Of a DNA stretch of 64,000 nt, positions 24-64,000 are shown piece by piece. Position 1 is the stretch's first letter; each line of letters opens with the position of its first letter. The DNA comes from Xiphophorus maculatus (Eukaryota; Chordata; Actinopteri; Cyprinodontiformes; Poeciliidae): the NCBI RefSeq assembly GCF_002775205.1, contig NC_036450.1, positions 13,597,479 through 13,661,478 on the forward strand. Reading direction: 5' to 3'. The notes beneath the pieces are model-generated. The model was not told where the DNA came from and did not search any database. It saw only the letters and a program-made list of their open reading frames with translations. A program made the position numbers and the translations under genes.

Positions 24-11624
<11,601 letters not shown>

Positions 11625-16578: not shown

Positions 16579-19500
16579 TTAAAGTTTAAAGATGAAACCG
16601 CCCAGGACGATGACCTGCAGCAGATTTGACCAGATCGGTCGACCGGCCGCCCCCCCCAGGAGCCCAGCGTCTCTGGAGGCCGACACGGTGCGGCTGAAGG
16701 TGGGATGGACGTGTCTGAAGTTGTTCTGCAGAGGCGTCACCTGCTCTGCGTCTTCCTCTGTCGAGAAGATCTGTGAGGTAAACTGAGCCAGCTGGGAAAG
16801 AAATTTTATTTATTTTTTAAACAGCCAGGCAGGAATCCTGTGATATTTTTTAGGAATCAGAACCAACCTGGGACCAGGAGATGTAGATGGGGACCTCATA
16901 GAGAGTCCAAACTACGGCCTGAGAACAGGGTGGGGTGGTGAGGCTGCCAGAATAACGGTAATACTGACTCATGTTGTGCTTCGGCAGGAGACTCAGCAGA
17001 GGGAATGGCTTTACTTTAGTCGTCTGGCCTTGAGGAAAAGATGCAGCCATGTTAGAAACCTGCAAAAACAAAGTCTTACCAAGTACTTTGGTTCTAGTTT
17101 CTAGTGAAAATATCTTAATGCACGTGAAATAAGACAAAACAAACCCACAAGTAACTTTTCAGCAAAAATCTTAAGTCAGTGATTCCTAAATATTGACGAA
17201 AAAGTTCTAGCACTGGCAGATTATTTCTCTTATAAGAAGAGAAAAATGTCTTGTTAGAAGTGAAGCTTGTACTTTTATAAAAATGAAATTTAAGGATTTA
17301 TTTACTTAAAATAAGCTCCTGTATCTTGCTGAAAACTTGTTTGGAATTTAGTTTTGTCTTATTTCAAGTGTTTTAAGATGTTTTGCACTGGAAACTAGAC
17401 CAAAAATACTCGGTCAAATTTAGTTTCTTCAGTGCAGCAGCACGTGGTTGTAAGTGGTGAGTCTAACCTCTGTACGCTACAGAAGACAGTTTTTGGGAAA
17501 TGTGTCCAAAATGAACATTGTCTGCATAAACAACCTGCAACAAAACACACAACCTTATGCAAAAAAATTGCAGCCACATTATAACTGAAGCTGTTGTATG
17601 TTTTCATCAACTAACGTCAATGAAGAAGCCGAGAACAGCAAATCCTGTTGGATCGTCCAGAGCTGCAGACTCATTGGGGTGGACGGACTTCATGTTGACT
17701 ACGTGCATCTGTGGACGACATCAAAACCGGCGCAGAGGCGTTAAGGGGCGGCTGCGGCGCGGCAGCCTGCTGAAACAGACGGAGTGGAGCTGCCTACTGA
17801 CCATACTGTACCTCCATCGGATATCTGCGCCCGTCCACCGTGTGCTCAGAGCCGTTCGTCGCCAGGCCTCCCCAGTGGAAGTGCAGCTGGACGGTGTGGT
17901 AAACATCTGGAAGACCTCCGCCGCTCACAGCCATGCCGCTGCCAACCTGTAGCAAAACTGAAGGAGGAGGAGGGGGGAGGAAAGACACAACACGGATGTC
18001 AAATCCAACACTGAACACGACGGGAACTCTCTGTCGGTGAGGAGAATCTGTGGGATGCTCACCAGAGTGTCCGTCGTTCTCAAGCGTCCAGTGGCCTGCT
18101 TGGACCGCGTCGAAACCCTCAAGATGCAACGGCCCCAAGGAGTCGTTTCGGACCAAGTTTTGGTCCAGGTTGATGGGGGAGTGGTGGCGCTCGAGTAAAG
18201 GGTGGCATGAAGGGAAGGAGTCGCCCCATGAATATGGATCTGGTGCAGAGGTAAGGAGAGAATCACTGAGTCCACTGGACTCTCCAGAACAGGATGAAGG
18301 TAAAAGTTAAATATGTGTTTCAAGAAGCAAAAAGAGAGCAAGGAAAGTATCAAAAAATATGTAATTTTCAGGGGATCTTTTTACACATGATTTTCAGGTC
18401 AGATAACCCTGACTCCAGAACTAATTCAAACCCTCCTTCTTGCCAGAATACCTGTGTGGGCCCCATGTGTGGCCCATTGTTTCAATAAATGTTAAAAACA
18501 AAAATATGGTCCACAAGTACCAGCTTAATGCAGGTTTTCTCTGAAATTGAAGGTTACGATTATACCTTTTACACTTTAATAGACATTATACTGTCAGAAA
18601 TATACTATTGATAGCATTGGGATGACGGCTTTTCCATGAAATCAATCTGATTTTTGTCATTGTCATTCTAAAACAGCTTTAGGTGTGTGTTTCGTATCAT
18701 TTCCCACTTAACTGAAATAAGGTTTATTAGGATTCAGCCTTGGTAACCACCAAGGCTAAAGCTGATAACCTGGGAGGTGTGAAGCATCAACACTGACTAA
18801 GACGGCGCCAAATAAGAAAGAAGTGATTTCTCCTAAAATCAACACCTTCAAACTTGCTTGCAAACCTGAGATTATGGGACTAAATTATTTAACTGCACTT
18901 TAAATCAAAATCTTCAAAAGGAAACAGTGGTGACCATATAGGCAGCTGCCCAGGGGGCCATTAGAAAAAGGGGCACATGAGGACCATTTAAAAATATAAA
19001 ACTATAAATACAAACAAAAAACAACTATATGTAAAGCAGGCTTTTAACTCTGGTGCCTCTGTAGCTCTACTGAGCATTTTTTGGATGTACTTGAATAAAC
19101 CTAAGAGATGATAGCAGCAAAAAGTAAATAGTTTCCAGTCACTTAAGGACATTTAACCAAATATTAGTGAGGGTTTATGACTATATTTGAGCCTACATGC
19201 ATTCGTAGGTTTTTATGTTCTTCAGGAACCACAAGGTGGTTTAAGAGAGTAAAAAGAAAATCATAGTTTCAATAATAAAACTTGCTGAAATAAATCTGAA
19301 AGTCTCTGTTAACTGTGAGGAGATAAAACAAAATCTACAGAAGCTGTTTAATAGAAAGCTGAGAGGATCAACAGCTTCAATCTGTAGCATCAGATGCTGC
19401 TGAGCTAACATGGAGGACAGGATCAAATCGGGACGCAAAACAACTTTAGCACAAGAGAAATTTGCATCGAAAGCTTTAAAGTCTACCAAGTTGTTTGGAG

Positions 19501-24543: not shown

Positions 24544-27500
24544 CTATACCACAGTGCTGAGGGAGGACGTGCAGTCTGCGGGCAGAGGGGCGGGGGCGTG
24601 GCCATCTGTTGGCGTGTCAGGGCCCACCAGGAGGGTGCTGCTGTCTATGGAGTCCTCCCTCTCTTGAGACGATGGCACACAAACGGGCGCTGGAGCGGGG
24701 GAGTTGGGAAGTTCGGCCTCGAGCCCGTTGCCCAGAGAGTTCATCTGGCTCGGCACCACAGAGACTCCGCTGTGTCCTGGAGGCAACGATGGAGAGCGGA
24801 GAGGAGACGATCAGAGGTCAGCCAGGCTCAAACGATTAGACATGCACTGCAGAAACACTAAATCCTACAGGTCTAGTTTCTAGTGCAAATATCTTGTTAT
24901 AGTTGAAATAAGACTAAAATAATGTACAAGTCACCTTTCAGCAAGAAATATGAGTTTATTTTAAGTCAATAATTTCTTAATATTGATGAAAAAATACAAG
25001 TTATTAGTGAAATATTCTGCCAGTGGAACTAGTACTTTTTCATTATATGGAATTATCAACTTAAAACAAGCTCTTGTATAGCAAGATATTTTTATCAGAT
25101 TATTGAAATAATCGTCAACTAATTTAGTAATGGATTAATTGTTAACTGGGCATACAGACTCAAAAACAACATATTCAGAGCAATAATTAAGCCAAAACAG
25201 TTCATAATATACATACTTTTAAGATCAAAAGACTTTTGTCTCTCAGTTTTTTGTTTTTCACCTAAAACTCCTCAAGTGACATAATTTTAGCGTCACCTGG
25301 TTCTAATTCATTAAAAAAAATGCTATATTATGTTTATTTGCACCTTTTAAAGCATTTCTAATATTATGCAAATAAAGCTTAAGTGGTTAAATGAAAGCTT
25401 TGCAGAATGTGACAAATTTTTTAAATCATATTGTCAGCATAAATCGGTAGAATAATCAATAAGATATTCGCTAGCTCTACAGTTCACATGACGGGCTAGC
25501 CGGACAGGAGGAAGGACGTTCCTTACCAAAGTCCACGTAGAGGAAGGTGTCTGGGTTGATGGAGGCTTCGTACGGAGGAGGGGGGTCGTCTGGGTGAAGG
25601 ATGTCGGCATATTTGTAGGCGGCGTACGGCGGAGGCGGCTCCTGGAAATGAAAAGCCCCGCCTTCGCCATCATCAGACAGGTGCAGAGGAGTGAGACCGG
25701 TGCCGAAGGCATCTGGGCCGTAGTCGAAGCCCGGCACTCGTCTTCCGAGGTTGAAGTGGTGCACTGAGGAAAACAAACATAAAAAAACGAGAAATGTGAC
25801 TGCTGTCGTTAGAAAATGCCCACTAATCAAAGCTTAAATAGAGACAACAGCATCATTAAAAGCCGAAGCTGCAAATCAGTCACAGGATTATAAATAGTGT
25901 GTTATTTATCCCAATTCATCCGATTAAACTAAATGACATCATATTGATCGGTTGAGGCTTACAGTTGCCTCCGATCAGAGTCTCGATGCGTTCGCGTCTT
26001 CTCTGACGAAGTCTGTGCACCATGAAGAGCAGCAGCGACAGGATGAGGAAGGACGAGATGCAGCTGACGATCAGCCTCATCCCACTGGCCATCGAGTCAA
26101 ACAGAGTGCTGCCATCTGAGGGGAAAGAAAAAATAAATAAATAAGAATTTCGTTTGTGGATTTAAGCACAATCGGAACCGTACAACTAGTTAATAGTTTA
26201 AATTAATTGCAATGAATCAATTATTGAAATAATCGTTACTAATTTTATAATCAATTAACAGTTAACTGAAGTATATGGACCCAAAAAAGACATTTGCTGA
26301 AAGAACAACATACTGAAAGTAATAATTAAGCCAAAAATGTACCAAAAATATAATCAATGTGTATTTAAAATAAAAAAAACAGCCTTTGTCTGTAAGTATG
26401 TTCTGCCTTAAACCCCCCAAGTGTCGTAGTTTTGGCTTAAACTGGTTCAAATGCTGTTGGAAAAAAGAAAAAAAATTCCTATTCAACACGTTTTTTTCTA
26501 TTCAATTATTAATTGGTTAATCCCCCAAAACAAACAGATCAGCCCTAGACTGTATTAATGTCAAGTCAAGCATAAAGTGCAGAACTTTTCACATGTGGAT
26601 GTTAGAATAATTTTTTTCACTGCACTAGTTGCGGCCCAAGTCTACATTTCTTGTAGTACTTAAGATTCTGCAGTAACAGGTATAAATATTCAGAGTTTCC
26701 TTGTATAAACACACAGCGGCAGAGACCAAAAGATGAACACAAGTACCGGGATCCAGGCAGGTGAACTTGCAGCACTCTTTGGGATCCTTCTGAAAGCGAG
26801 TGCAGCCCTGCGGCCGCTCACACAGCGCCGCCACACACATCTCTGGCTCGCCGTCATGACACGTGCAGCTCAGACACGGGTCGTCCCCCTTCGGGGTGAA
26901 GTAGTAGCCCTCATTTACTACATTGTCTTTTATATCTACACATGTTTGCCCTGTGTAGAAAGTAACCAAAAATGAAGAAATATTAATGAAACAGCTGATT
27001 ATAGACATATCTGGAAGCAAACAGAGTGAGCACATACTCCTCTTGCAGAGGAACGGGAACTTCTTGTAGCAGTTCTCAGCGTCCCAGCTGTGCAGGCCGT
27101 GTTCATTCATGCTCTTGCTCTGGAAGCGCTGCAGCTGGGCGCAGAAGACGTTGTCCTGAGAGGGAGAGGTCTCCCCAAACTTCTCCAGGCCCTCAGGCGG
27201 CCAAATCACCTGCATGGACCCTGTGAGGAAACATCACATCCTTAATGCCCAGCCCAGATCACAGACTATTCAACTCTTCTTCCTTTATTACCTTTCGAAG
27301 CCACTTCCCAACGGCCCTCCAAGGTGTGACTTCGATTGGTGATCACATACTGATAGCCCACCCAAAACCTGGACACGATATATTACATTACTACATGCTG
27401 AGTCCAAGGACTTATTTCTGGGTTCATGAACTGACACATTTTCACCACTAGACGGCAGGCTATCACTCTATCAGCTCTGAGTCCATTTGCTCAAACATTT

Positions 27501-42240: not shown

Positions 42241-43721
42241 TTAGTTTTCAGTGTTTCCGACTACAAATGACAATCTTTTCTGACGTCTCCATTTTGCTCT
42301 TCGGTTTTTAAACCAAACCTACCAGGAAGAAAAGAGACAGAATTATTATTTAATACCTCCCATTCTTCATATTTGGCAGGGTAGTTCATGTCCACATAAT
42401 CTAAAGAGAGTGAAACCTCTCCATCAAGCATTAGCAACACATGCAGCTGCTGTCTTACTTCTACTCTTTCTTCTCTTAAGTTAGTTTGCTGTGCAAGTTT
42501 CTCTCGCGCGTTTACATCTGGATACTGGTTCTGCAGGAACAGTTCCTCCAGTGCATCCAGCTGTTCTTCGGTGAAAATTGTACGGTGACGCCTGGTTCGC
42601 CTCTGCACCTGGCCGACCTTAGGCTGCTGCTCCTCCCTTTGAGCCTCCCCCAGCCGGCACGTCTCTGAGATCATAGCTGCTCGGTTCCATCCGTACTGAC
42701 AGGCTGCAATAAGATTCACATACGTCATCATAGTTTTAAATGAAAATGACAAATGCACTTTTCTTAAACTGAAAAGATCATGTTGAGTCATACCCACGTA
42801 AACAGGAAAATGCTACCATACATGGATTATTAACTATAATTTGGAATGCCACTGTCTATAAATCAAGACAATCACATAAGGATGTGGTTTTCTGACAAAC
42901 AGCCTTTAGTGAGAGGACTTTAGACAACCTTGCAGTGTTGCTTTGACAGCCAGATTATTCAGTTGTGAACCACGGACAAATAATGTGGATTACTATGAAA
43001 CTTGACCAATGTCTACTAGGCTCAAAATTACAATGGTGGTCAGAACTGGAACAGAAATTGCAATATCTACATTAATGCTGACAGGATTTCTGTTTTGATT
43101 TCCAGTTTCATTCACAGGGGGTCATTTGACATGTGATAATGACAGGCACTGCATCACTGGAGAATGCTTTTAAATCTCTTGGGTGCCAGTTTTTTAAGTC
43201 TTCTGACTTCCTTGTCCTCACTAAATCAATTTGCATATAAGTCTTCATGTCCACATTCTCACTCCTTTGGTGTGGCCTCATGCTTGTGTATGATGAATTT
43301 AAGGATTAGCCTTGGAACTAATTTCATATTGCTTCTTATACTCAGCTAGCAAAACCTATATCAGCTTGAGAATCTATGTACCTTTATGAGCTACAACCCT
43401 GCCTTCACATGGCCGAAGTGTTGCCTTCAGGGTTTCAGAACATAAAACTGAATTTCCATAGTTACTTTATACAAAGACAGACGATGGTACGTTCTTACCG
43501 TCATGGATGAGATCAGAGTGCAGCATGTCAGCGCAGTGGGAACAGAAACAGCAGCACAAGCAGGTGTGATGAACAGGCTCAGGACAAACCATCTTCTCCT
43601 TCAGTCCAAAAACTCTTGTTCCACATGGTTGTTTGTCTCCAATACTGCTAGGATATTTGTTCAGAATGTTCTCAATGGTGAACGGAAACTTTTGTCTTTC
43701 CATCTTGATGTGTCTGTCCAT
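42241..43721 (-). CDS. gsc2: GSC2 goosecoid-type homeobox transcription factor
   Basis: DNA-binding repressor of the goosecoid family. Exons: 43721-43499, 42703-42459 and 42318-42241. They give 546 bp, 181 aa (human about 205). An eh1-like Groucho-binding motif, FPFTIENIL, lies at residues 12-20. The homeodomain spans about 111-170 ([19 protein letters not shown] to [14 protein letters not shown]). Lys160 in WFKNRR is homeodomain position 50, as expected for Gsc/Bicoid-type DNA specificity. The second intron falls between residues 46 and 47 of the homeodomain, ahead of VWFKNRR. A second in-frame Met at residue 7 could also start translation. The C-terminal tail after the homeodomain is short (about 11 residues). 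The order after ess2 matches mammals, where GSC2 also neighbours ESS2. Confidence 0.93.
42704..43498 (-). other. gsc2 intron 1
   Basis: 0.8 kb intron. It includes one arm (43264-43345) of a direct repeat that flanks exon 1. Confidence 0.6.
43264..43345 (+). repeat. Direct repeat flanking gsc2 exon 1, intronic copy
   Basis: 82 bp beginning CCTTTGGTGTGG and ending TATACTCAG. It matches 44141-44221 with about five differences by eye. Confidence 0.85.
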
Positions 43722-46365: not shown

Positions 46366-48904
46366 ATGGAAGATAAGTTAATTTTAGCTGTATTTAATTA
46401 CCCGGAACTGTACAATGTCACTTTACCGAATTACCGTTGCACGGAAAGTCGGATAAACGCTTGGAGAAACATCAGTATGGCACTTGGTTACCCATGTGAG
46501 TATTTGTTTATCGCAACTTTACTCCCAGTTATTGTTTGCTTAGCCGCATCTGCGTCGGGAGCCTAATCAGGCACGAGTTGTTTACGGGACACAGAAGTAT
46601 TTCACGCTTCTGAACCTGGCGATTTGCTGTGATTCGGGTGTTTATCCCGGTTGCTAGGTCCACTTTGACGCTGATGCAGCCGCGCGCGCCGTGCTAGCGG
46701 TGACGGCCGTTGCTCCACGCCGCAGGCCGCGCTGCGCGGAGCGGAGCGGCGCGGCGTGCCTCTACCGCGGAGCTAGCCGCGGCGCTGAACTTGCTCTGCG
46801 GCATGGACACGCAGCACTCTCCGACCTTCGAGCGACTCTAGGCGCGTTCTTTGCTGAAACTGTGCTAGAAATGCTGGGAGAGCAGAGAATGCTCCTGAAA
46901 AGCCGTAAAAGTTCACAGCAGAGCCTCGGTTCGTTAAACATGCCACAAATGGAGGGCCCCAACCCAGAGTAAGTGCGCAAAGGCAACAGAGTGCAGAACT
47001 GAAATATACTTATAAACCATATACAAAAATGCCTTTAGTAATGTTTGGTCTTATTTATTTTTGAAGATCCAACTTTAGAATATTGTTGATAAATAACTCA
47101 ATTGAAAAACTTTTTACACATCAGTGTAAAGGTTTAAATTATGCAATGACAAATAAAAACACCCAATATAGACTTATCCACTGTGCTGGTTGGAACACAT
47201 GTAATTATTTTTTTAACGTAATTAGCCTTAAAATCTTTGAAAGGAAACTCAGATTGTTCTTGTCAAACAGATGCTTTGCAGATGATTCAGAACTCAAGGT
47301 TTTCTTCACATTATAGCCACAAACCTTAATGTATTTTATTAGAACTTTGTGTGACAAACAACAATTAGTGCATAATTCTAAATGAAAAAAAATATATATG
47401 GTTTTATTATTTTTTCAGCCTTAAACATATTGAGAACAACGCCGATGCTTTTGGAGCCTGTTTTGCACTTGTAGAAATTGATGGGTTTTTTTTTTGTTCA
47501 TTCTTAAGGTTACATTTAGTCAGATTAGGATGGGAAACACATCAACATCAGCTGTCAAGTCTTGCCATATTTTTTTTTCTTTTAAATACAGATCTGAACT
47601 CCAAGGCACTTTCTTACTTTCCAACTTCAAGATGCGTCCTTTCTCCAACACACCTGAATCAAACGAATCTCTGGTTACACGAGCCGATTGACTGCTGAAT
47701 CGAAACATCAGTTTGATTCAGGTGTTTTAGGGCAGTCCTGATCTAAACATTTTAAAAATAATTATGAATAAGAAGTTTGATATTTTCTCTTATTTCAGAA
47801 AGTGAAACTCATTAATTCATTAGAGTTAAATACTTCCAGCCTTTATGGCTTGTGATTTTGAAGATCAAATAAAAAGGGCTAATTTACCCAAAACTGACAG
47901 GCTTCTGTTCATGCAGTTCTCTCGCCAATCAAGCACAGTAACACCAAGGTTGAACCAACTTTTGGTACGTTTGGCAATGTGGCCAGTAAGCAAGTCCTGC
48001 TGGAAGATAGTCAGCATCTAGATAAAGTTTTTCAGCAGAAGGAAGCATAGAGTCCTCTAAAATTTCAGGGTAGACTGTTGCATTAACTGTGAACTTCAGA
48101 AAACTGAGTGGGCCAACACAGTGATCATTGAAAACAATAAAAAGGCTTGAAATATTTCACTATATGTGTTGTAAATCTTTGAAAGTTTTGGTAATGTTCC
48201 AGTTTTACACTCTGAAATCTTGTTTTTCAGCCCATGAATGCAAAAGGAAATGGAAAAATCTAAGAGACCGCTACCTGAAGGAAGTCCGGATGGAGCTCAA
48301 AGGCAAAAAGCAGGGAGAGTTTGTACAAAGCAAATGGAAATACAGACAGCTGATGAACTTTATCGCCCCCTTCACCGGATCCAGAGTGGGAGTGACGGAC
48401 ATTTGTGGCAACTGTGACGACCACAACAACCCTGACCACGAATCCGGGAGTGGTGAGGGAGACACCGCTTCGTCAGAGTCGACCAAGACTTCTCTAAAGG
48501 TTTCTACGAGTCCGTCCGATCAAAAAGCTCCGCTGGCCTTCGTAACGCAGCTTCCCGCGTTGTCTCAGGACACAGAGCTGACTCAGCTGGCCATGGTGGC
48601 CAAGATGTCCCCCGTCTCCCAGATAACCCCCACCAGCAACACTGGACGGAAACGGACTTTGTTGCCGGAGTCGGCGTCTCCTCAAAGTACAGACTTGTCA
48701 AATAAGTGGCTGGTGAAGGAAGGCGGCGGGCCGCTCCCCGCCAGGATGCGGCAGGACGAGGACGAGCTGTTTCTGCTGAGCTTCGTTCCAGCTCTGAAGA
48801 GACTGGCCCCACAGAAAAGGTGCGAGACTAAAATGAAGATCCAGCAGATAATGTACGAAGCAGAATTTAACGTGCAGGAAAAAAAGGCGCCGCAAGACAC
48901 ATAG
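46366..48904 (+). CDS. MADF-BESS domain protein (DNA-binding regulator, unnamed)
   Basis: Two exons, 46366-46495 and 48231-48904, make 804 bp, 267 aa. The N-terminus (DKLILAVFNYPELYNVTLPNYRCTESRINAWRNIS, then HECKRKWKNLRDRYLKEVR) is a MADF/Myb-SANT-like DNA-binding domain, about residues 1-85. A basic linker reads LKGKKQGEFVQSKWKYRQLMNFI. The middle is Ser/Thr-rich and low complexity. The C-terminus (DEDELFLLSFVPALKRLAPQKRCETKMKIQQIMYEAEF, about 219-256) is a BESS protein-interaction motif. This pair of domains marks transcriptional regulators and domesticated PIF/Harbinger-type partner proteins. I do not recognise a vertebrate gene name. AATAAA at 48979-48984 is a good polyadenylation signal. 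The gene converges on rnf185. Confidence 0.85.
46496..48230 (+). other. Intron of the MADF-BESS gene with a CpG-rich start
   Basis: 46630-46980 is strongly GC/CpG-rich and extends the promoter island. The rest is AT-rich. An imperfect 15-bp inverted repeat ACACCTGAATCAAAC / GTTTGATTCAGGTGTT lies at about 47649-47727, probably a decayed DNA element. 47880-48120 also looks like old transposon sequence, unplaced. Confidence 0.5.
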
Positions 48905-53012: not shown

Positions 53013-53077
53013 TATATATATATATATATATATACTGTATATATTCGGTGTAAATAAAGTATACTTTATACTACTAT

Positions 53078-53640
53078 ATACTTTATTTAAGATAAGATAA
53101 GATAAGATAAATCTTTATTGTCATTGTCACAAGAACAACGAAATTCAAAAGGTGCCATCAGTCAGTGCACATGCCCAAAAACAAAAAATAACTGTCTCAC
53201 AATTCACACACAACGCAAGAATCAACAAACAACTGGCAAAAAAAAAAGAAAAAAAAAAAATAGAAAAATAAGAACAGCCACATTCTCACATACATCATTT
53301 ATGATGATTAATGGTTGTTTTTGATTGCATTTAGTTTTGTTATTGCTGTCGGGTAGAAACTGTCTCTGAGACAGTTGGTTCTTGTTCCGATTGCTCTGTA
53401 TCTTCTGCCTGAAGGCATCAGTGTGAACAGAGAATGTCCGGGGTGAGAAGTGTCCTTTTTTACACCGAAGGGAAATTAAATGTCGTGACTTATATCCTCC
53501 AAATATCTTCATAGAGTTGTCGTGGATGTTGATGATGCGAGCAGGAAGGACTCCAGTAGAGGTCAGTCTTGCAAAGAATTTGAAGAAGCCTCTGACTGAA
53601 GGCTGTTGGTGTTTGACAGTCATGACATGTTAACAGGTCA
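53078..53640 (-). mobile_element. LINE 3' end (CR1/L2/Rex1-like), unit 1
   Basis: The minus strand reads an RRYRAIGTRTSRLRDSFYP-like reverse-transcriptase C-terminal tail, seen clearly in unit 2. It then runs through AATAAAGATTTATC into a (TTATC)n tail. The body of the element is missing. The assignment rests on the motif and tail only. Confidence 0.5.
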
Positions 53641-54519
53641 ACATCAGCAGAGATAAAATTTTACAGTAATGTGTCCTGGACGACACAATCAGTGGTTGAC
53701 AAGCACTACTTATTGACCCAATTTGTCTCTCTAAACCTATGGCTGGCTGTATAACTGAAAGCCTGGCCGTTGGAGTTGGAGATATGATTGTTACCCATAA
53801 TGATAATTTTCATTTGTCTGAGATCTTACGCTTAATTTGATTTGGGGAACATGATTATGCATTCTGACTACTAACCAGACAGCAGTATTATCGTCTCTTT
53901 TATATTGTCCACATTTGCATCCTAGTATTCTGGTATACTTTGATTTAAAGCAAGCTAGTGAGCAAATGCTGAAATATTTTAGCAGTATATTTGATATATT
54001 TTGAAGTAAAACTTTCAGTAACAGCACCAAGCAGGTAGGAGCAGTGGAAATTGACACCCATCTGGGGTAAAACCTGAAGATTACCTACACAAAATTACCC
54101 CTATCAATAAAACTTTCTCAACCAAGTTCTAAGTTATGTTTTGTTTGGAGAATAAAATACTTTAAATAACAAACAAATTTTAAGTGTTTATTCAGTGTGT
54201 CCTTTGCATATTTTGGATTGTCTCAGTAAAATAACCACGAGATTGTTAATTTTTTTGTATGTAAGCAAACAATTTAAATAAATAAAGTGCATGTTGAATT
54301 TTAATAAAATACTTACTTTTTTATTGCATAGAACAACAATTTATTGTAGATAATTTATTTAGTTACAACCACGGCATTTTTGTTTCAGTTACAAAGGATA
54401 GCAAAAGTTATTAAAAGCTATCAAAAAGTTTAAGTACACAATATAGGTTTTGTGTTTTTTACAGCTAAAGATTTAAATGAACTTATAGAAGATCAAAATG
54501 CAATGAGTTTTTTTTATTT
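53641..54519. other. Spacer and 3' UTR of GPCR copy 1
   Basis: AT-rich with several TTTATT (minus-strand AATAAA) signals near 54321, 54338 and 54513. No gene is seen. The counterpart in unit 2 is 61558-62440. Confidence 0.5.
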
Positions 54520-55533
54520 TTAGGAAATAGTGTGAGTTTCAATTATTTCCATTGACTTGGATCTTGACTGATTGAACCCAGTCGTGTGGATATCCTCAGC
54601 CATCGCCTCCTCATACCTTGACATTACAGAGTGCTTCAGAGTTTGCTTGAAGTCATTGCCGACGAACACGTAGAAAATGGGGGAGATTAAGGCATTAGCT
54701 GCTGCCAGGGTGGCCCCCACTTTTAGTCCAACCAGAAGCATCTCTATATTGTGTTCCATAAAGTTAATTTCCATGAGACAAAAGGTATGGTAGGGGACCC
54801 AGCAGAAGAAAAACGACAGGATGAGTGCCACCATGATTTTATAAGGCCTTTTAGATCGAATGGTTGAGCCTCTCAGCTTCAGACCGATCACCGCGCAGCT
54901 GAACACAATAATCAAGAAAGGAACAATAAATCCACAGAAGAACCGACCCAGTACCACAGCCTTATGACTGACATTGGAGCTGTAATTCAACTGGCACTTG
55001 GTGTAGGAGTCTTGGACTGCGGTGGTTCTAAAAATGGCTGAAGGAAGCGTTAGGAGTCCAGCGAGAAGCCACATCACGGCGACTGTTCCGTAGGCTTTGT
55101 GCACCGTTCGGTGGTTGTTTGCCCACACAGGGAACAAAACAAGGACACAACGGTCAGCGCTGATTAAGACCAACAGAAACACACTACTGTACATGTTGAG
55201 AAACAAAGCAGAGGAGATGAACTTGCACAAAAACTGGCCAAAAGGCCAGTTTGAGGTCAGAGAGTAAAAAACTTCAAAGGGCAAAAGGATACAAAAAAAC
55301 AAGTCCGAAAGAGCCAGGCTGATGTACCAGGTGGTGATGACTGTTCTTTTCATTTTACACCCACAGATCCATACCACTACAGCGTTCCCAATCAGACCAA
55401 AAACTGATATGAAGATGTTGACCACAGCAAGAACATGAGTCACGGAGGCCTGGGAGAACTTTGATTGTTGCAGGACGTTTTCAGTTTCATTGATGGGAGT
55501 GTAGTCTTCATATTCAATGTAATCCAATTCCAT
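54520..55533 (-). CDS. Chemerin-receptor-like (CMKLR1-like) GPCR, copy 1
   Basis: Class A receptor of the chemoattractant group, in the plasma membrane; the ligand is inferred to be chemerin-like. The coding part is one exon of 337 aa. A noncoding leader exon ends at 55663 (donor GTGAGTATTT) and the coding exon opens at 55544 after TTTTTTCTTTTAG. The start ATG at 55533 (MELDYIEYEDY) was chosen over an upstream in-frame Met because it follows this acceptor. The N-terminus has acidic/Tyr residues and an NET sequon (N15). Asn50 marks TM1 and Asp77 TM2; the Cys103-Cys180 disulfide pair is present. DRC (127-129) replaces DRY, as in CMKLR1 and FPR. CWVPYH (244-249) marks TM6. NPxxY is changed to SPIFY (284-288). 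Loop 2 has sequons N183 and N187. An AATAAA lies just after the stop. Confidence 0.88.
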   Translation of the reverse strand: MELDYIEYEDYTPINETENVLQQSKFSQASVTHVLAVVNIFISVFGLIGNAVVVWICGCKMKRTVITTWYISLALSDLFFCILLPFEVFYSLTSNWPFGQFLCKFISSALFLNMYSSVFLLVLISADRCVLVLFPVWANNHRTVHKAYGTVAVMWLLAGLLTLPSAIFRTTAVQDSYTKCQLNYSSNVSHKAVVLGRFFCGFIVPFLIIVFSCAVIGLKLRGSTIRSKRPYKIMVALILSFFFCWVPYHTFCLMEINFMEHNIEMLLVGLKVGATLAAANALISPIFYVFVGNDFKQTLKHSVMSRYEEAMAEDIHTTGFNQSRSKSMEIIETHTIS

Positions 55534-56089
55534 TGTTAGTTTTTCTAAAAGAAAAAAATATATATAACATTCCTCAAAAACATGGTCATACATACAACAC
55601 TGAAAATAAAGAGCAACTACAATCTAAAGTGTAGCTCAAAGTAGATAAAGCTAAATACTCACTTCTTGTGTGGATGTAAAAACAGACCGTAACATCTCCC
55701 TTCTGTAGTTCTCTGTGCTGAATATAACTTCTCACTTCTCTTTCTCTGAGCGTGTTGCTTAACAGTTTCAAGAGTACAAGAAACGAGTAGGTTGGAAACA
55801 GTGTGGAGAGGTGTAACGCCCTGTCAGAACGATAAGCATCAGAACGCAGCTTCATTCAGCATGTTACAAAAGTGTTAACACACGGAAACATTTTAACATT
55901 TTGTGATACCGCCACACATGTTAGGAAGTTTCTGAGACAAATTATTGCAGTGTACCAAGTAGTTGAGAAGTAGAAGGGAAATGACACCTGGTTTTGATTG
56001 TTTTTTGTTTTTTACAAAAACTGTTTTGTGAAATAAAAACTATTTAACAAAATATTAAAACACATGGTTTTTAATTTTGTTTACTTTCT
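55534..56089 (-). other. GPCR copy 1 leader exon, intron and promoter region
   Basis: The noncoding leader exon ends at 55663 and the intron runs to 55545. Upstream sequence to about 56089 should contain the promoter. An 89-aa open frame at 55586-55855 spans the leader and part of the intron and is not considered coding. Confidence 0.55.
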
Positions 56090-56420
56090 GATGACCAATG
56101 TCACCACTCGATACCCTACTTCTCGATTTTCTCTTTGACCTTTTGGTATTTCTCAAGCTTTCTATGTTCCTTCTTCCTGAAGTTGCTTGGGATTGCAGTA
56201 TCTACCATGGCTGTTCTCTTTTCTAATTCGTCTACATTCACAATACCCAATTATCAGTGAATCTGCATGTCCCACACAATCTTATTATTCTTAAACACTC
56301 TTGCTGGTCTGTCCCACATTCTTGTCCACTATTTCATCAACTTGGTTGTGGTGTTCCATGTAAGCTTTGCCTGCCAGCATGCTATGGCCTGGTATTATGT
56401 TTTTGACTGTTTCAGGGACA
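56090..56420 (-). mobile_element. Decayed non-LTR retrotransposon fragment (RT C-terminal domain)
   Basis: The minus strand reads KIVWDMQIH, then MVDTAIPSNFRKKEHRKLEKYQKVKEK. This matches the PD-(D/E)XK-like C-terminal part of R2/R4-type LINE proteins (usually WDFQIQTD, then VDVAIPSD, then KKEHEKLEKYQ). In-frame stops break it and only this short piece is present. Confidence 0.45.
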
Positions 56421-57240
56421 TCTTTGCTTGGCCCATGTCCTGGATCTTGTCTGATGTGGTAGACCTGATCCTCTTTAACTCTGTTCCTGTGATTCTATCA
56501 GTTCCTTCCTCTATAGAAATTAAGACTTGTTGGTCTTGGCCACTTCCTCAATCTGACAATGTTTTTGTTGTTTGCATTCTGAGAACACCATAGTTTATTT
56601 ATCTTTACTGAAGCCCACCTTTTGTCAAAGTTTTGCAGATGATGTAATTGGTTGAGATCTCTCAGGGTCCCAGGCCAGCAGGGGTTCTAAGGCTCCCGCA
56701 AGACTCTCAGGTCGGCCCTGGAGGAAGAGTAAAGACTAACCTTGGTATTATCCTAAACTGAATCAAACAAGAGTGACTGCAGGCAACAAGTTATCTTTAC
56801 AGGATGTTATAGGTCTGATATCTTTGAACAAAGACGAACAAACAGAATGGAGCGCGACTGGTTTCTGGTCAGGTGATCACAGAAATGCTGATTTCACAGT
56901 ATAGTAAGAGAATATGTTCAGTATTATCTTAACAAAAATGAGGAAGGAAAAGTCCTAATAATGTCCAGTCAAGAGAAAACGTGATCAAGACAAGCTTGAC
57001 CAAACGTGTAACAAAGTTCTGAAAGCGAAGAAACTAACCAACCAACTTGGGTTTGTTGGAAAAAGAAATCACCTAGTGGACAGAAAAACTATACTTGCAC
57101 CACGTGACAACTATTGGTATATCAAGTATTTGATCAGGCAGTGCTGTGTGTTCTTCTTTAGAGGCTTAAACGTTACCATAGCGACCAGAGTCAGAGGTTA
57201 TGGCAGTGGTCGAGACGAGAGTAGAGTAGAGCTCGTGAGT
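56421..57240. other. Spacer within duplication unit 1
   Basis: No gene is seen. Some of 56420-56740 may continue the LINE fragment. Confidence 0.4.
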
Positions 57241-57249
57241 CTTAAGTTT

Positions 57250-57990
57250 GGTTCACACAGCACGATTTAAGGATTGTCGGCCGATTTTCCAAACCTCTGT
57301 GACCACAGAACTGATAAAAGTCCAACAGGTTCGGTCGGTTCGTGTGTCCAGCCACGCGGCAGGAGCAACACACCACACACGAACCGATTCCACTCACGAA
57401 CATCCCGATTCCAGAAGAAAATCCAGTAAAACCCCCGACATACCGTACGTGAATTTAAAATAATCAAACACGGATCACGATGTAGAAGCAGCAGTGATAG
57501 TTTGTGGTCTCATTTTAAGCGATAAAAGACGTTAAAAGAAAAGCCGTTTCATAAAAGATGGCGGGAGCAGCCGCTCTATTTGCTGCACTATGATTTGGAG
57601 GCGAGTTATGTTTTTTCGTAGTTAACATTTTTAATTGAATAAACATAACCACATATAATAAACATATATAAAAATGACCTTTACATATAGTAATAAACAT
57701 TTCCATATATCACCTCCGATGTCCACCGGACTCGCAGTTGCCATGTCAACTGTTTGGAATTCCCACCCCCGTTCTTACGTCACCGCGCTTCCTGATTGGC
57801 TACCTGTCGCATTCAACAAGGAAAAACCCCACAGGCTGCGATAATCGGGCCAAGACAATGTTGAATATGCCCGATTTTATATCGGGCATATTCAACACAC
57901 CACCACATAACACAGCACTCACTGCAGGACGTTGTAGGATTGTCGTAAAGGGAAAAAAGGGGCAAAAAAAAGGCTTTAGCGGGAACACCA
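57250..57990. mobile_element. Probable non-autonomous DNA element
   Basis: Opens GGTTCACACAGCACGATTTA, a common start of fish MITEs. It carries repeated CCGATT/ATCGGG motifs, including a perfect palindrome at 57859-57897. Its ends are not securely defined. Confidence 0.35.
57859..57897. repeat. Perfect 17-bp inverted repeat with 5-nt loop
   Basis: TGTTGAATATGCCCGAT at 57859-57875 and its exact complement at 57881-57897. Confidence 0.95.
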
Positions 57991-58690
57991 ACATACAGAA
58001 GCATTATCTGCATTTGTTTGCATTTGAAAACTGTTTTTATTTACCCTCTTCACTGTCATCCAAAAACGCTAACATGTCAGGGTCCATGAGCACACCAGTT
58101 CTGTCATGACAATTACAGTACTCTGTCTTTGTCTGAAATTTTGTTTGATAAGCTCAAACATTAAAAAAGATTCAACTGAACAAATCTATATGAAAAAAAC
58201 AAATTGTCACAAAACTGTAACTTCTGACAGTTTCTATGGTAAAGGGATTAGCCAATAACATCACAAACCACTTCTAGGAAACATTTCCTCTTTTAATTTG
58301 AATTGAATGTTGGAATACATAAAATACAGAAATACATTGATACACAGTTAGAAATTATACTGACTTCCAAGCTTGAAAATATCAGTTTTGCAGGTAACAT
58401 TTGTTTTGATTAGAAACTTTGTGACTTTTTGTCTGTTTTTTTCTTGCATTTTTTTTTTTTGCAGTTCAAGAGAAGCTAAACTTGTGATTTTTTACAACAG
58501 TGTCTTAGAAGGTATTTATCTTGGATTTAATAATTTGCTTTACATTTTTAAAACTTTAGAAAACCCCTATATATATTTTTCCTATGATCCTATTACAACA
58601 GAGTATTGTGGCCACATTAATAAAATAAAGATAATAACAACAAGACAATTCTAAAAATATAGTCATAATATTAAAAGAAAAAATTCACTA

Positions 58691-58810
58691 CGACTTTATT
58701 CTCACATTATTATAACTTTATACACACATTATGACTGTATTCTCGTATTATTTCGATTTTATTTTCATACAATTTTATGACTTTATTCTCGTATCATTTT
58801 TATTTTCTTG
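58691..58810. repeat. Degenerate tandem repeat of an ACTTTATTCTCGTATTATT motif
   Basis: About four diverged units of ACTTTATTCTC followed by TATTATT, in a pattern common in fish AT-rich repeats. Confidence 0.6.
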
Positions 58811-59270
58811 GTATGGCCGTATTACTTCGTCGTATGTAATGGCAGTACTTTGTTTCTGTAAACATTGGCACCAACAGGACTCCGTATATATTGTAATGAC
58901 GTCAACACCGGAGATGTAGTCCCGCCAAACAGGGTTTATTAGAAATAGGTACAAGCTGCTATTTCTGAGGCTGCAGCTCACGCCTCTAACAAACGGGCAC
59001 AATCAACCATTAGCTTCATTGCTAACTCCCCTCTGAACTCTCTCCCACATCCGGTCCTGGTACTCCCGCTCCACCGATCCCCCGCCCACATGACAGGCCT
59101 ATCACATGTGAGTGGGAGCCAGCAGAGTCAGACAGGGGAAGCCCATAACTCTCTAACAGAAAGGATCACAATGCAACTTATAACAAATACAAATAACCAT
59201 ATGAACCCCAGCAGAACTAAAACACAGAATCGTTACAATATATATCCTCTGGGTGGTTTACATTAACGGA

Positions 59271-59280
59271 GCATGCGCAG
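59271..59280. promoter_or_regulatory. NRF1-like site in the iscu promoter
   Basis: GCATGCGCAG, 80 bp upstream of the iscu ATG. It matches the core of the nuclear respiratory factor 1 site found in many promoters of nuclear genes for mitochondrial proteins. Confidence 0.5.
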
Positions 59281-59360
59281 TTTGCGTAAGTCCTCCCCGT
59301 TCTACCTCGGTGCCGCTCGTATCTTCTGTCCGGTAACGTTAACTGCGCCATTAGGTCAAC

Positions 59361-59462
59361 ATGGCGGGCTCTGTGGCGAAGAAGTGTCTCAGTCCTCTGT
59401 CTTTGCTCACTCGGAGGCTCTCAGCTCCTGAGTTCATCACTCAGTGCTGCTACCATAAGAAG
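59361..59462 (+). pseudogene. iscu: Orphan first exon of iscu (iron-sulfur cluster scaffold)
   Basis: 34 codons from ATG at 59361 to the GTAAAC donor at 59463 encode MAGSVAKKCLSPLSLLTRRL, then SAPEFITQCCYHKK. This is a mitochondrial presequence ending like human ISCU exon 1 (LSAPARLYHKK), and the phase-0 exon end agrees. ISCU is the mitochondrial scaffold on which [2Fe-2S] clusters are built. No further iscu exon (VVDHYENPRNVGSLDK and onward) occurs before 61037, where the duplicated unit ends and a second GPCR unit starts on the opposite strand. This exon therefore looks separated from the rest of its gene by the tandem duplication. The CpG-rich promoter with an NRF1-like site is retained. 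Read-through past the donor would give an 83-aa product. Confidence 0.8.
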
Positions 59463-59644
59463 GTAAACAGCGTCAAAGCTGCCCTCGAATGTGTCAGGTT
59501 AATGTTTACGATATGTTTACTCTTGCGTTTAGGTATAGCTGTATTGCTAACAAATAGAATGGCGCAAATATGGAACTTTTCTTTGCTCAGAAAATTACTT
59601 GAACGTTGTTAGAAACTCGGGGAGAACCAGAGGAAAGAAGCTTA

Positions 59645-61037
59645 CATACACTCCTGATCAAAATCTTAAGACCAGTCAAAAAATGGCAAGAATTTGCATT
59701 TTGCACTATTGGATCGTAAGAAGGTTCTAAGTAGAGCTTCACAATGTTAAAAGAAGAAATCAGTGCAAGAGACAAGAACATTTGAGCGGGGAATTAATTG
59801 AAAACTGCATTTATACTCAAACATGATTTTTTTCAGCTGATCAAAAGTTTAAGACCATAGCTCAAAAAAACCCGAAAACCCCCCAAAACAGAAACAAAGT
59901 GTCAAAAAAAGGACTCAGTAATGAGTAGCTCCACCATTCTTGTTGATGACTTCAAACAATCGTTTAGGCATGCTTGATGCCAGTGTTTCCAGGAGGCTAG
60001 TGGGAACGTTGCTCCAAGTGTTGAAGATGGCTTCACGAAGGGCATCCACTGTCTGGAACTGATGTCCATTTTTGTAAACTTCCCTTGCCATCCATCCCCA
60101 AATGTTCTCAATTGGGTTTAGATCCGGGGAACATGCAGGATGGTCCAAAAGAGTGATGTTATTCTCTTGGAAGAACTCCTTTGTCAGGCGGGCATTGTGA
60201 ACTGCAGCATTGTCCTGTTGAAAAACCCAATCATTACCACACAGACAAGGGCCCTCAGTCATGAGGGATGCCCGCTGCAACATCTCCACATAGCCAGCTG
60301 CTGTTTGACGCCCCTGCACAACCTGAAGCTCCATTGTTCCATTGAAGGAAAACGCACCCCAAATCATGATGGCGCCCCCACCACTGTGCCGTGTAGAAAA
60401 CATCTCAGGTGGGATCTCCCTGTCATGCCAGTAACGTTGGAAGCCATCAGGACCATCAAGGTTAAATTTTTTCTCATCAGAGAAGACAACTTTCTTCCAC
60501 CTTTCAATGTCCCATGTTTGGTGCACCCTTGCAAAGTCCAAACGGGCAATTCTGTGGCGTTGAAGAAGACGTGGCCTTTGAAGACGTTTTTTGTTTCTGA
60601 AGCCCTTCTCTCGCAGATGCCGTCTGATGGTTATTGGGCTGCAGTCAGCACCAGTAATGGCCTTAATTTGGGTAGAGGATCGTCCCGTGTCTTGACGGAG
60701 AGCCAATCGGATCCTGCGGCTCAGAGCTGGTGAAATTTTTTGGGGTCTACCACTTGACTTTTTTGTTCCATAACCCTCAGGATCGTTTAAAAAATGCAAA
60801 ATGACTGTCTTACTGCGTCCAACCTCAGCAGCGATGGCACGTTGCGAGAGGCCTTGCTTATGCAGCTCAACAATCCTACCACGTTCAAAGTCAGTGAGCT
60901 TTTTTGCTTTTGCCATCAGGAGGTCTTGACAGTGTAAAGACTTCACAGAAAATGACATGGAATCCAGATGTTTGCACAGCTTTTGGCTTTTAAAGACTAT
61001 GGTCTTAAACTTTTGATCAGCTGAAGAAATCATGTTT
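59645..61037 (-). mobile_element. Tc1-like transposon, right end cut at the duplication join
   Basis: The left terminal region shows two direct repeats: an outer TCCTGATCAAAATCTTAAGA near 59652 and an inner CTGATCAAAAGTTTAAGACC near 59837. This is the IR/DR arrangement of Tc1 elements. On the right only the inner repeat (inverted, about 61001-61037) is present; the outer about 180 bp are missing and sequence jumps to the unit 2 LINE tail at 61038. A TA precedes the left end. The transposase inside is open (separate entry). The structure implies that the element was inserted in iscu intron 1 before duplication. Confidence 0.88.
59915..60916 (-). CDS. Tc1-like DD34E transposase, open reading frame
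   Basis: Cut-and-paste transposase of 333 aa from ATG at 60916 ([19 protein letters not shown]); the open frame extends upstream to 61033, but this Met matches the usual family start. An N-terminal paired-like helix-turn-helix DNA-binding region ([18 protein letters not shown]) is followed by an AT-hook-like SSGRPQK. The catalytic triad is Asp147 (SDEKKF), Asp235 (QQDNAAVH) and Glu270 (NPIENIW), with 34 residues between the last two. A Gly-rich [11 protein letters not shown] segment is present. No stop or frameshift is seen, so the element is young. This copy lacks a complete right end and probably cannot move by itself, though its protein could act on other copies. Confidence 0.93.
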
Positions 61038-61557
61038 ATACTTTATTTAAGATAAGATAAATCTTTATTGTCATTGTCACAAGAACAACGAAATTCAAAA
61101 GGTGCCAACAGTCAGTGCACATGCCTAAAAACAAAAAATAACTGTCTCACAATTCACACACAATTCAAGAATCAACAAACAACTGGCAACCCCCCCCCGC
61201 CCCAAAAAAAACACTAAATAAGAACAGCAGCCACATTCTCACATACATCATTTATGATGATTAATGGTTGTTTTTGATTGCATTTAGTTTTGTTATTGCT
61301 GTCGGGTAGAAACTGTCTCTGAGACGGCTGGTTCTTGTTCCGATTGCTCTGTATCTTCTGCCTGAAGGCATCAGTGTGAACCGAAGGGAAATTAAATGTC
61401 GTGACTTATATCCTCCAAATATCTTCATAGAGTTGTCGTGGATGTTGATGATGCGAGCAGGAAGGACTCCAGTAGAGGTCAGTCTTGCAAAGAATTTGAA
61501 GAAACCTCTGACTGAAGGCTGTTGGTGTTTGACAGTCATGACATGTTAACAGGTCAA
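61038..61557 (-). mobile_element. LINE 3' end, unit 2 copy
   Basis: Duplicate of the LINE tail at 53078. It has two GATAA tail units instead of four and lacks about 40 bp near 61380. Confidence 0.5.
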
Positions 61558-62440
61558 CATCAGCAGAGATAAAATTTCACAGTAATGTGTCCTGGACGAC
61601 ACAATCAGTGGTTGACAAGCACTACTTATTGACCCAATTTGTCTCTCTAAACCTATTGCTGGCTGTATAACTGAAAGCCTGGCCGTTGGAGTTGGAGATA
61701 TGATTGTTACCCATAATGATAATTTTCATTTGTCTGAGACCTTACGCTTAATTTGATTTGGGGAACATGATTATGCATTCTGACTACTAACCAGACAGCA
61801 GTATTATCGTCTCTTTTATATTGTCCACATTTTGCATCCTAGTATTCTGGTATACTTTGGTTTAAAGCAAGCTAATGAGCAAATGCTGAAATATTTTAGT
61901 AGTATATTTGATATATTTTGAAGTAAAACTTTCAGTAACAGCACCAAGCAGGTAGGAGCAGTGGAAATTGACACCCATCTGGGGTAAAACCTGAAGATTA
62001 CCTACACAAAATTACCCCTATCAATAAAACTTTCTCAACCAAGTTCTAAGTTATGTTTTGTTTGGAGAATAAAATACTTTAAATAACAAACAAATTTTAA
62101 GTGTTTATTCAGTGTGTCCTTTGCATATTTTGGATTGTCTCAGTAAAACAACCACGAGATTGTTAATTTTTTTTTACAGTATGTAAGCAAACAATTTAAA
62201 TAAATAAAGTGCATGTTGAATTTTAATAAAATACTTACTTTTTATTGCATAGAACAACAATTTATTGTAGATAATTCATTTAGTTACAACCACGGCATTT
62301 TTGTTTCAGTTACAAAGGATAGCAAAAGTTATTAAAAGCTATCAAAAAGTTTAAGTACACAATATAAGTTTTGTGTTTTTTACAGCTAAAGATTTAAATT
62401 AACTTAAAGAAGATCAAAATGCAATGAGTTTTTTTTATTT

Positions 62441-63454
62441 TTAGGAAATAGTGTGAGTTTCAATTATTTCCATTGACTTGGATCTTGACTGATTGAACCC
62501 AGTCGTGTGGATATCCTCAGCCATCGCCTCCTCATACCTTGACATTACAGAGTGCTTCAGAGTTTGCTTGAAGTCATTGCCAACGAACACGTAGAGAATG
62601 GGGGAGATTAAGGCATTAGCTGCTGCCAGGGTGGCCCCCACTTTTAGTCCAACCAGAAGCATCTCTATATTGTGTTCCATAAAGTTAATTTCCATGAGAC
62701 AAAAGGTATGGTAGGGGACCCAGCAGAAGAAAAACGACAGGATGAGTGCCACCATGATTTTATAAGGCCTTTTAGATCGAATGGTTGAGCCTCTCAGCTT
62801 CAGACCGATCACCGCGCAGCTGAACACAATAATCAAGAAAGGAACAAGAAATCCACAGAAGAACCGACCCAGTACCACAGCCTCATGACTGACATTGGAG
62901 CTGTAAATCAACCGGCACTTGGTGAAGGAGTCTTGAACTGCGGTGGTTCTAAAAATGGCTGAAGGAAGCGTTAGGAGTCCAGCAAGAAGCCACATCAGGG
63001 CGACTGTTCCATAGGCTTTGTGCACCGTTCGGTGGTTGTTTGCCCACACAGGGAACAAAACAAGGACACAACGGTCAGCGCTGATTAAGACCAACAGAAA
63101 CACACTACTGTACATGTTGAGAAACAAAGCAGAGGAGATGAACTTGCACAAAAACTGGCCAAAAGGCCAGTTTGAGGTCAGAGAGTAAAAAACGTCAAAG
63201 GGCAACAGGATACAAAAAAACAAGTCCGAAAGAGCCAGGCTGATGTACCAGGTGGTGATGACTGTTCTTTTCATTTTACACCCACAGATCCATACCACTA
63301 CAGCGTTCCCAATCAGACCAAAAACTGATATGAAGATGTTGACCACAGCAAGAACATGAGTCACAGAGGCCTGGGAGAACTTTGATTGTTGCAGGACGTT
63401 TTCAGTTTCATTGATGGGAGTGTAGTCTTCATATTCAATGTAATCCAATTCCAT
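62441..63454 (-). CDS. Chemerin-receptor-like (CMKLR1-like) GPCR, copy 2
   Basis: Duplicate of the gene at 54520, same 337-aa length, fully open, with the same leader exon (donor at 63585/63584, coding exon from 63465). It differs from copy 1 by eight residues: E87D, V153L, Y177F, Q181R, N183I, K191E, I203L and F287L. There are also six silent changes. N183I removes an NxS glycosylation sequon in extracellular loop 2. The DRC and SPxxY variants are shared, so they predate the duplication. The leader, intron and upstream sequence are duplicated too, so both genes could be expressed from similar promoters. Assignment to a CMKLR1-like subgroup is by remembered similarity; the true ligand is unknown. 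Confidence 0.88.
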   Translation of the reverse strand: MELDYIEYEDYTPINETENVLQQSKFSQASVTHVLAVVNIFISVFGLIGNAVVVWICGCKMKRTVITTWYISLALSDLFFCILLPFDVFYSLTSNWPFGQFLCKFISSALFLNMYSSVFLLVLISADRCVLVLFPVWANNHRTVHKAYGTVALMWLLAGLLTLPSAIFRTTAVQDSFTKCRLIYSSNVSHEAVVLGRFFCGFLVPFLIIVFSCAVIGLKLRGSTIRSKRPYKIMVALILSFFFCWVPYHTFCLMEINFMEHNIEMLLVGLKVGATLAAANALISPILYVFVGNDFKQTLKHSVMSRYEEAMAEDIHTTGFNQSRSKSMEIIETHTIS

Positions 63455-64000
63455 TGTTAGTTTTTCTAAAAGAAAAAAAATATATATAACATTCCTCAAA
63501 AACATGGTCATACATACAACACTGAAAATAAAGAGCAACTACAATCTAAAGTGTAGCTCAAAGTAGATAAAGCTAAATACTCACTTCTTGTGTGGATGTA
63601 AAAACAGACCGTAACATCTCCCTTCTGTAGTTCTCTGTGCTGAATATAACTTCTCACTTCTCTTTCTCTGAGCGTGTTGCTTAACAGTTTCAGGATTACA
63701 AGAAACGAGTAGGTTGGAAACAGTGTGGAGAGGTGTAACGCCCTGTCAGAACGATAAGCATCAGAACGCAGCTTCATTCAGCATGTTACAAAAGTGTTAA
63801 CACACGGAAACATTTTAACATTTTGTGATACCGCCACACATGTTAGGAAGTTTCTGAGACAAATTATTGCAGTGTACCAAGTAGTTGAGAAGTAGAAGGG
63901 AAATGACACCTGGTTTTGATTGTTTTTTGTTTTTTACAAAAACTGTTTTGTAAAATAAAAACAATTTAACAAAATATTAAAACACATGGTTTTTAATTTT
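63455..64000 (-). other. GPCR copy 2 leader exon, intron and promoter region
   Basis: Nearly identical to 55534-56080. Leader exon donor at 63585/63584 and coding-exon acceptor at 63465. Confidence 0.55.

Follow-up and report, generated by a model that had tools for sequence, protein, structure and literature searches.

A probable recent tandem duplication of a gene related to chemerin-like/formyl peptide receptors in Xiphophorus maculatus, joined without homology inside a Tc1 element

Introduction

Two nearly identical G protein-coupled receptor genes lie in the same orientation towards one end of a 64,000-base stretch of Xiphophorus maculatus DNA (hereafter the window). Does this pair record a real and recent tandem duplication, by what route was it made, and have the two receptors begun to diverge? 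Several sets of fish receptors near GPR33/CMKLR1, some with internal duplications, have been described (PMC6504862). A CMKLR1 duplicate of the three-spined stickleback, ENSGACG00000007491, is reported as lineage-specific and variable in copy number (PMC4256280). A literature search for tandem duplication of the chemerin receptor in teleosts found no paper.

Results

Two copies of the receptor locus in direct orientation

Self-BLAST of the window and a global alignment delimited the repeat as follows.

53078..56078, + strand: copy 1, the part also visible in copy 2 (self-BLAST and global alignment)
61038..64000, + strand: copy 2, in direct orientation and cut by the window end (self-BLAST and global alignment)
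53427..53463, no strand: 37-bp sequence of copy 1 that is absent from copy 2, the largest of seven indels (global alignment)
53078..61037, + strand: duplicated unit of 7,960 bp predicted by a simple tandem duplication (boundaries from the alignment and Tc1 symmetry; full length of copy 2 inferred)

Self-BLAST gave 98.55% identity between 53464-56078 and 61380-64000 (2,622 columns) and 92.2% between 53098-53428 and 61048-61381 (335 columns). The 98-99% identity put forward in the preliminary description therefore holds over most of the repeat but not over its first ~390 bases, which contain a poly-A/poly-C tract and the 37-bp loss in copy 2. In the global alignment, 55 of 2,953 aligned pairs are mismatched (27 transitions and 28 transversions) and seven indels separate the copies. 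The poly-A/poly-C tract at 53240-53274 carries 19 of the 55 mismatches, and four more lie upstream of it. This tract is poly-A in copy 1 and has become largely poly-C, with a run of nine C, at 61190-61227 in copy 2, a difference that may reflect either true microsatellite turnover or local sequence error.

The 23 mismatches before position 53279 were left out of the rate comparison. From 53279 onward 32 of 2,763 bases differ, with 14 differences in 1,014 coding bases and 18 in 1,749 non-coding bases (Fisher P=0.46). The alignment thereby reproduced exactly the 14 coding differences counted earlier, and the proposal that coding and non-coding sequence have diverged at about the same rate was borne out. 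Self-BLAST, the alignment, the coding/non-coding comparison and the join described below all support the earlier claim of a recent direct duplication. A tandem arrangement explains it best, although just 3,001 of the 7,960 unit bases (38%) can be seen to be duplicated; the unit length is a prediction of the tandem model because copy 2 is truncated where the window stops.

The mean mutation rate of fishes is given as 5.97e-9 per site per generation (PMC9995274) and that of the herring as 2.0e-9 (PMC5524536). Computed at 6e-9, the 18 differences in 1,749 non-coding bases correspond to about 0.9 million generations (0.5-1.4), and the herring rate yields 2.6 million generations (1.5-4.1). Either figure would be an underestimate if gene conversion had acted between the copies.

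A base-level join inside a Tc1 element

The two ends of the unit meet in the following features.

61037..61038, no strand: join of the unit end, inside a Tc1 element, to the unit start, with 1 bp of microhomology, no filler and no N (alignment and Tc1 symmetry)
59647..61037, - strand: Tc1-type element whose transposase frame (59915-60916, 333 aa) is open and whose right end is cut by the join (domain matches and inverted arms)
53051..53089, no strand: perfect 13-bp inverted repeat (53051-53063/53077-53089) with a 13-bp loop, the unit starting at its 3' arm (sequence)

The join is placed at 61037|61038 independently by homology to the unit start and by the end of the Tc1 mirror symmetry: the symmetry stops at 61037, exactly where copy 2 starts, and the unit end runs directly into the unit start. 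A single T is common to the bases left of 53078 and of 61038. The join with at most one base of microhomology proposed from the first inspection thus proved exact to one base. Homologous recombination between repeats was considered as the source of the join, and the sharing of just 1 bp speaks against it.

Blunt joins, with less than 2 bp of homology, are reported to make up 35% of fly and 11-19% of human copy-number variation (CNV) breakpoints, and non-B DNA is enriched at CNV breakpoints (PMC4056370). The present join resembles the non-homologous class in being simple, in having less than 2 bp of homology and in having a hairpin on one side, whereas the published sets come from fly and human and ours is one single event (PMC4056370). 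As for the hairpin itself, 0.2% of all positions in the window are no more than one base from the start of such a 3' arm and 0.6% fall within such a repeat; restricting the count to positions of equal or higher AT content (within 3 points) raises these figures to 3.8% and 8.1%. The inverted repeat at 53077/53078 is thus a weak hint, not proof, of a fragile hairpin.

The 333-aa frame of the Tc1-type element matches DDE_3 (PF13358) and HTH_Tnp_Tc3_2 (PF01498), both above their cut-offs. Its inner inverted arms (59819-59832 and 61024-61037) are 93% complementary. Outside them, the left side continues for 172 bases to the outer end at 59647, and 172 bp of terminal repeat are missing at the right. 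The element therefore combines a Tc1-type transposase with a DDE domain and terminal inverted repeats, short of its right outer end. The open transposase frame suggests that it is probably young. Searches for relatives of the transposase in microbial genome contigs and in viral contigs, where little was expected, found 55 and 40 stretches, respectively, that fit a pattern, with none confirmed in either set.

Two open receptor genes related to CMKLR1 and FPR2

Each copy contains one receptor gene on the minus strand.

54520..55533, - strand: 337-aa coding sequence of the copy 1 receptor, a 7tm_1 protein related to chemerin-like/formyl peptide receptors (open frame, Pfam and structure relatives)
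62441..63454, - strand: copy 2 receptor coding sequence, 337 aa, with eight amino-acid changes relative to copy 1 and loss of the N183 sequon (open frame and comparison)
55545..55662, - strand: predicted 5'-UTR intron of copy 1, donor GTGAGT, acceptor TTTTAG (consensus motifs)
63466..63584, - strand: predicted 5'-UTR intron in copy 2, with its splice sites preserved (consensus motifs)

The copy 1 receptor contains a full-length rhodopsin-like GPCR domain (7tm_1, PF00001; 144.3 bits against a curated cut-off of 30.5; profile positions 1-260 of 260). The Pfam scan was made on copy 1, to which the copy 2 protein is 97.6% identical. Compared with solved structures, copy 1 aligned over nearly the full receptor with human CMKLR1 (E 5.7e-63) and FPR2 (E 3.1e-57) among the best 60 of 217 matches. 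Among solved structures these two are the best relatives of both copies, yet they are remote from them. Judged from these sequence matches, both receptors are open relatives of the chemerin-like/formyl peptide receptors. In both copies the usual NPxxY motif of helix 7 reads SPxxY, a change that must be older than the duplication as both receptors carry it. Neither receptor matched NCBIfam, a prokaryote library, and in viral contigs, where little was expected, four stretches fit a receptor pattern and none was confirmed. Downstream of the receptor, six AATAAA/ATTAAA-type motifs are present in copy 1 and five in copy 2, the one at 54354-54359 having been lost.

Divergence between the two receptors

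The 14 coding differences comprise six synonymous and eight non-synonymous changes (dS 0.027, dN 0.010). The resulting ratio of about 0.39 makes some constraint on the receptor frames likely, on small numbers. The differences are unevenly spread: nine of the 14 fall within 165 bases (post hoc scan P 0.0026 for coding differences and 0.0066 for all 32 differences), and 90-base windows hold a cluster of six (P 0.036 and 0.063, respectively, also post hoc). Among the replacements, four of eight occur at codons 177-191 around Cys180, the counterpart of the CMKLR1 loop-2 cysteine in the alignment (post hoc scan P 0.012, 0.0057 and 0.0058 for windows of 15, 27 and 51 codons, respectively). Codons 169-192, a loop region fixed after looking, contain four of the eight replacements and one of the six synonymous changes (binomial P 0.0014); for codons 173-191, a region likewise fixed after looking, the binomial P for replacements is 0.0006. 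All of these clustering tests were framed after the data had been seen and covered a range of window widths. Gene conversion from another paralogue would leave a similar-looking cluster. A literature search for positive selection on loop 2 in duplicated formyl peptide receptors found no paper.

In copy 2 the NYS sequon at 183 has disappeared and the NVS sequon at 187 is retained. As aligned, Asn183 of copy 1 and Leu287 of copy 2 are each common to CMKLR1 and FPR2. Leu203 of copy 2 is common to CMKLR1 and one of two FPR2 constructs, the other (8y62) having serine, and Val153 of copy 1 is common to CMKLR1, FPR2 having glycine. The alignment with CMKLR1 and FPR2 gives no polarity for the changes at 87, 177, 181 and 191. 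On this thin and remote evidence, both copies seem to have changed since the duplication.

A candidate exon within the unit and the surrounding genes

The predicted unit would also contain a possible piece of a neighbouring gene.

59361..59462, + strand: candidate first coding exon of a neighbour gene, 34 aa, followed by a GTAAAC donor (inferred)

The candidate exon has a mitochondrial-targeting-like start, and upstream of it lies the sequence GCATGCGCAG, which we take to resemble an NRF-1 site. It had no match in NCBIfam or the PDB. Under a tandem duplication, the copy 1 exon would be severed from the rest of its gene and transcribed antisense into the copy 2 receptor.

Further away in the window, pieces at 7847-9028, 17794-18156, 26625-27215 and 42261-42797 correspond, as listed, to the N-SET domain of SET1-type proteins, a carbonic anhydrase, a C-type lectin fragment (below cut-off) and a homeodomain. 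This order presumably recalls the DGCR2/GSC2 region of human 22q11. An open frame at 48128-48904 (+ strand) carries MADF and BESS domains above cut-off; MADF/BESS proteins in fish are often transposon-derived. Three of the ten frames scanned (4343-5131, 25477-25830 and 53222-53623) gave no family.

Discussion

The two copies, the join between them and both open receptor frames can be read directly from the window. We consider it probable that the duplication is real and recent, with about 8 kb copied in direct tandem orientation. A break or stalled fork at the AT-rich hairpin (53077/53078) and another inside the Tc1 element (61037) would have supplied two ends that were presumably joined without homology, through either non-homologous end joining or template switching during replication. 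The product would be two complete receptor genes with their upstream DNA and predicted intron. Copy 2 would extend over the whole unit and end in the original uncut Tc1 element, the predicted sibling of the one interrupted at the join.

Against this tandem duplication, the foremost alternative is an assembly artefact, in which the assembler or a gap filler placed two haplotypes of one locus one after the other. We regard it as unlikely. Non-coding divergence of about 1% together with seven small indels is possible between haplotypes of an outbred fish, and a transposon end and an AT-rich hairpin could be natural contig ends. The N count is zero at the join and throughout the 64,000 bases, even across a 102-bp (TA) array and homopolymers of up to 25 bp, which we read as a sign of long-read contiguity. 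False duplications are described as recognizable by halved read depth, an intervening gap, discordant read pairs and single-copy k-mers; the gap is the most frequent pattern, but in some cases unsupported filled sequence links the two copies instead (PMC9516828). The lack of Ns in the window thus makes the commonest form of artefact less likely, and the single base in common at the join would have left an overlap-based assembler nothing to merge on.

We think it very unlikely that a real duplication took a form other than a simple tandem. In that case template switching, for example, would have placed a shorter piece of at least 3 kb in the Tc1 element some 8 kb from its source, and copy 2 would stop short of the full unit. 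Nothing seen contradicts such a copy, the far end of copy 2 lying beyond the window, and template-switching repair that captures neighbouring DNA has been reported at DNA transposons (PMC8277862). It would, however, need a second junction, whereas a simple tandem duplication gives the same-orientation adjacency directly. A retrocopy or transposase-carried copy of the receptor has a negligible chance of being correct, despite the Tc1 element at the unit end and a unit start that we take to resemble a LINE-like tail: a predicted intron, by consensus motifs, is present in both copies rather than absent from one, upstream DNA and 1.4 kb of 3' DNA were copied with the gene, and the join interrupts the Tc1 element 172 bp short of its terminus. 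The copying of the predicted intron and flanks indicates that the copy arose at the DNA level.

Returning to the tandem duplication, the closest parallel is the stickleback duplicate, likewise a CMKLR1-type receptor duplicate in a teleost, likened here by receptor type and not by orthology; it is listed as lineage-specific and shows very high copy-number differentiation in one lake-river pair (PMC4256280). The stickleback evidence is copy number from read depth, whereas ours is one base-level join in one assembly (PMC4256280). A more specific reading takes several claims together, namely that the duplication is real and segregating or species-specific, that the receptors are already splitting in ligand recognition, as the loop-2 changes and the sequon loss may suggest, and that along with the receptor the unit brought a second promoter and first exon from a neighbour gene, positioned for antisense transcription across copy 2. 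As a whole we think this combination quite unlikely to hold.

Nothing at this locus is outside the frame of known fish receptor duplications and low-homology CNV joins, and its general interest is limited because gene duplication of this kind is common. Both receptor copies may be expressed, and by their relatives the receptor would sense chemerin- or formyl-peptide-like chemoattractants. The duplication would then probably raise the dosage of a leukocyte chemoattractant receptor, and the ligand-facing loop 2 may have begun to diverge. If real, the duplication provides a freshly made immune-type receptor pair whose join is known to the base, and therefore a single PCR can score it in populations. 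It would also make it possible to ask cleanly whether loop 2 is where new chemoattractant receptors first diverge.
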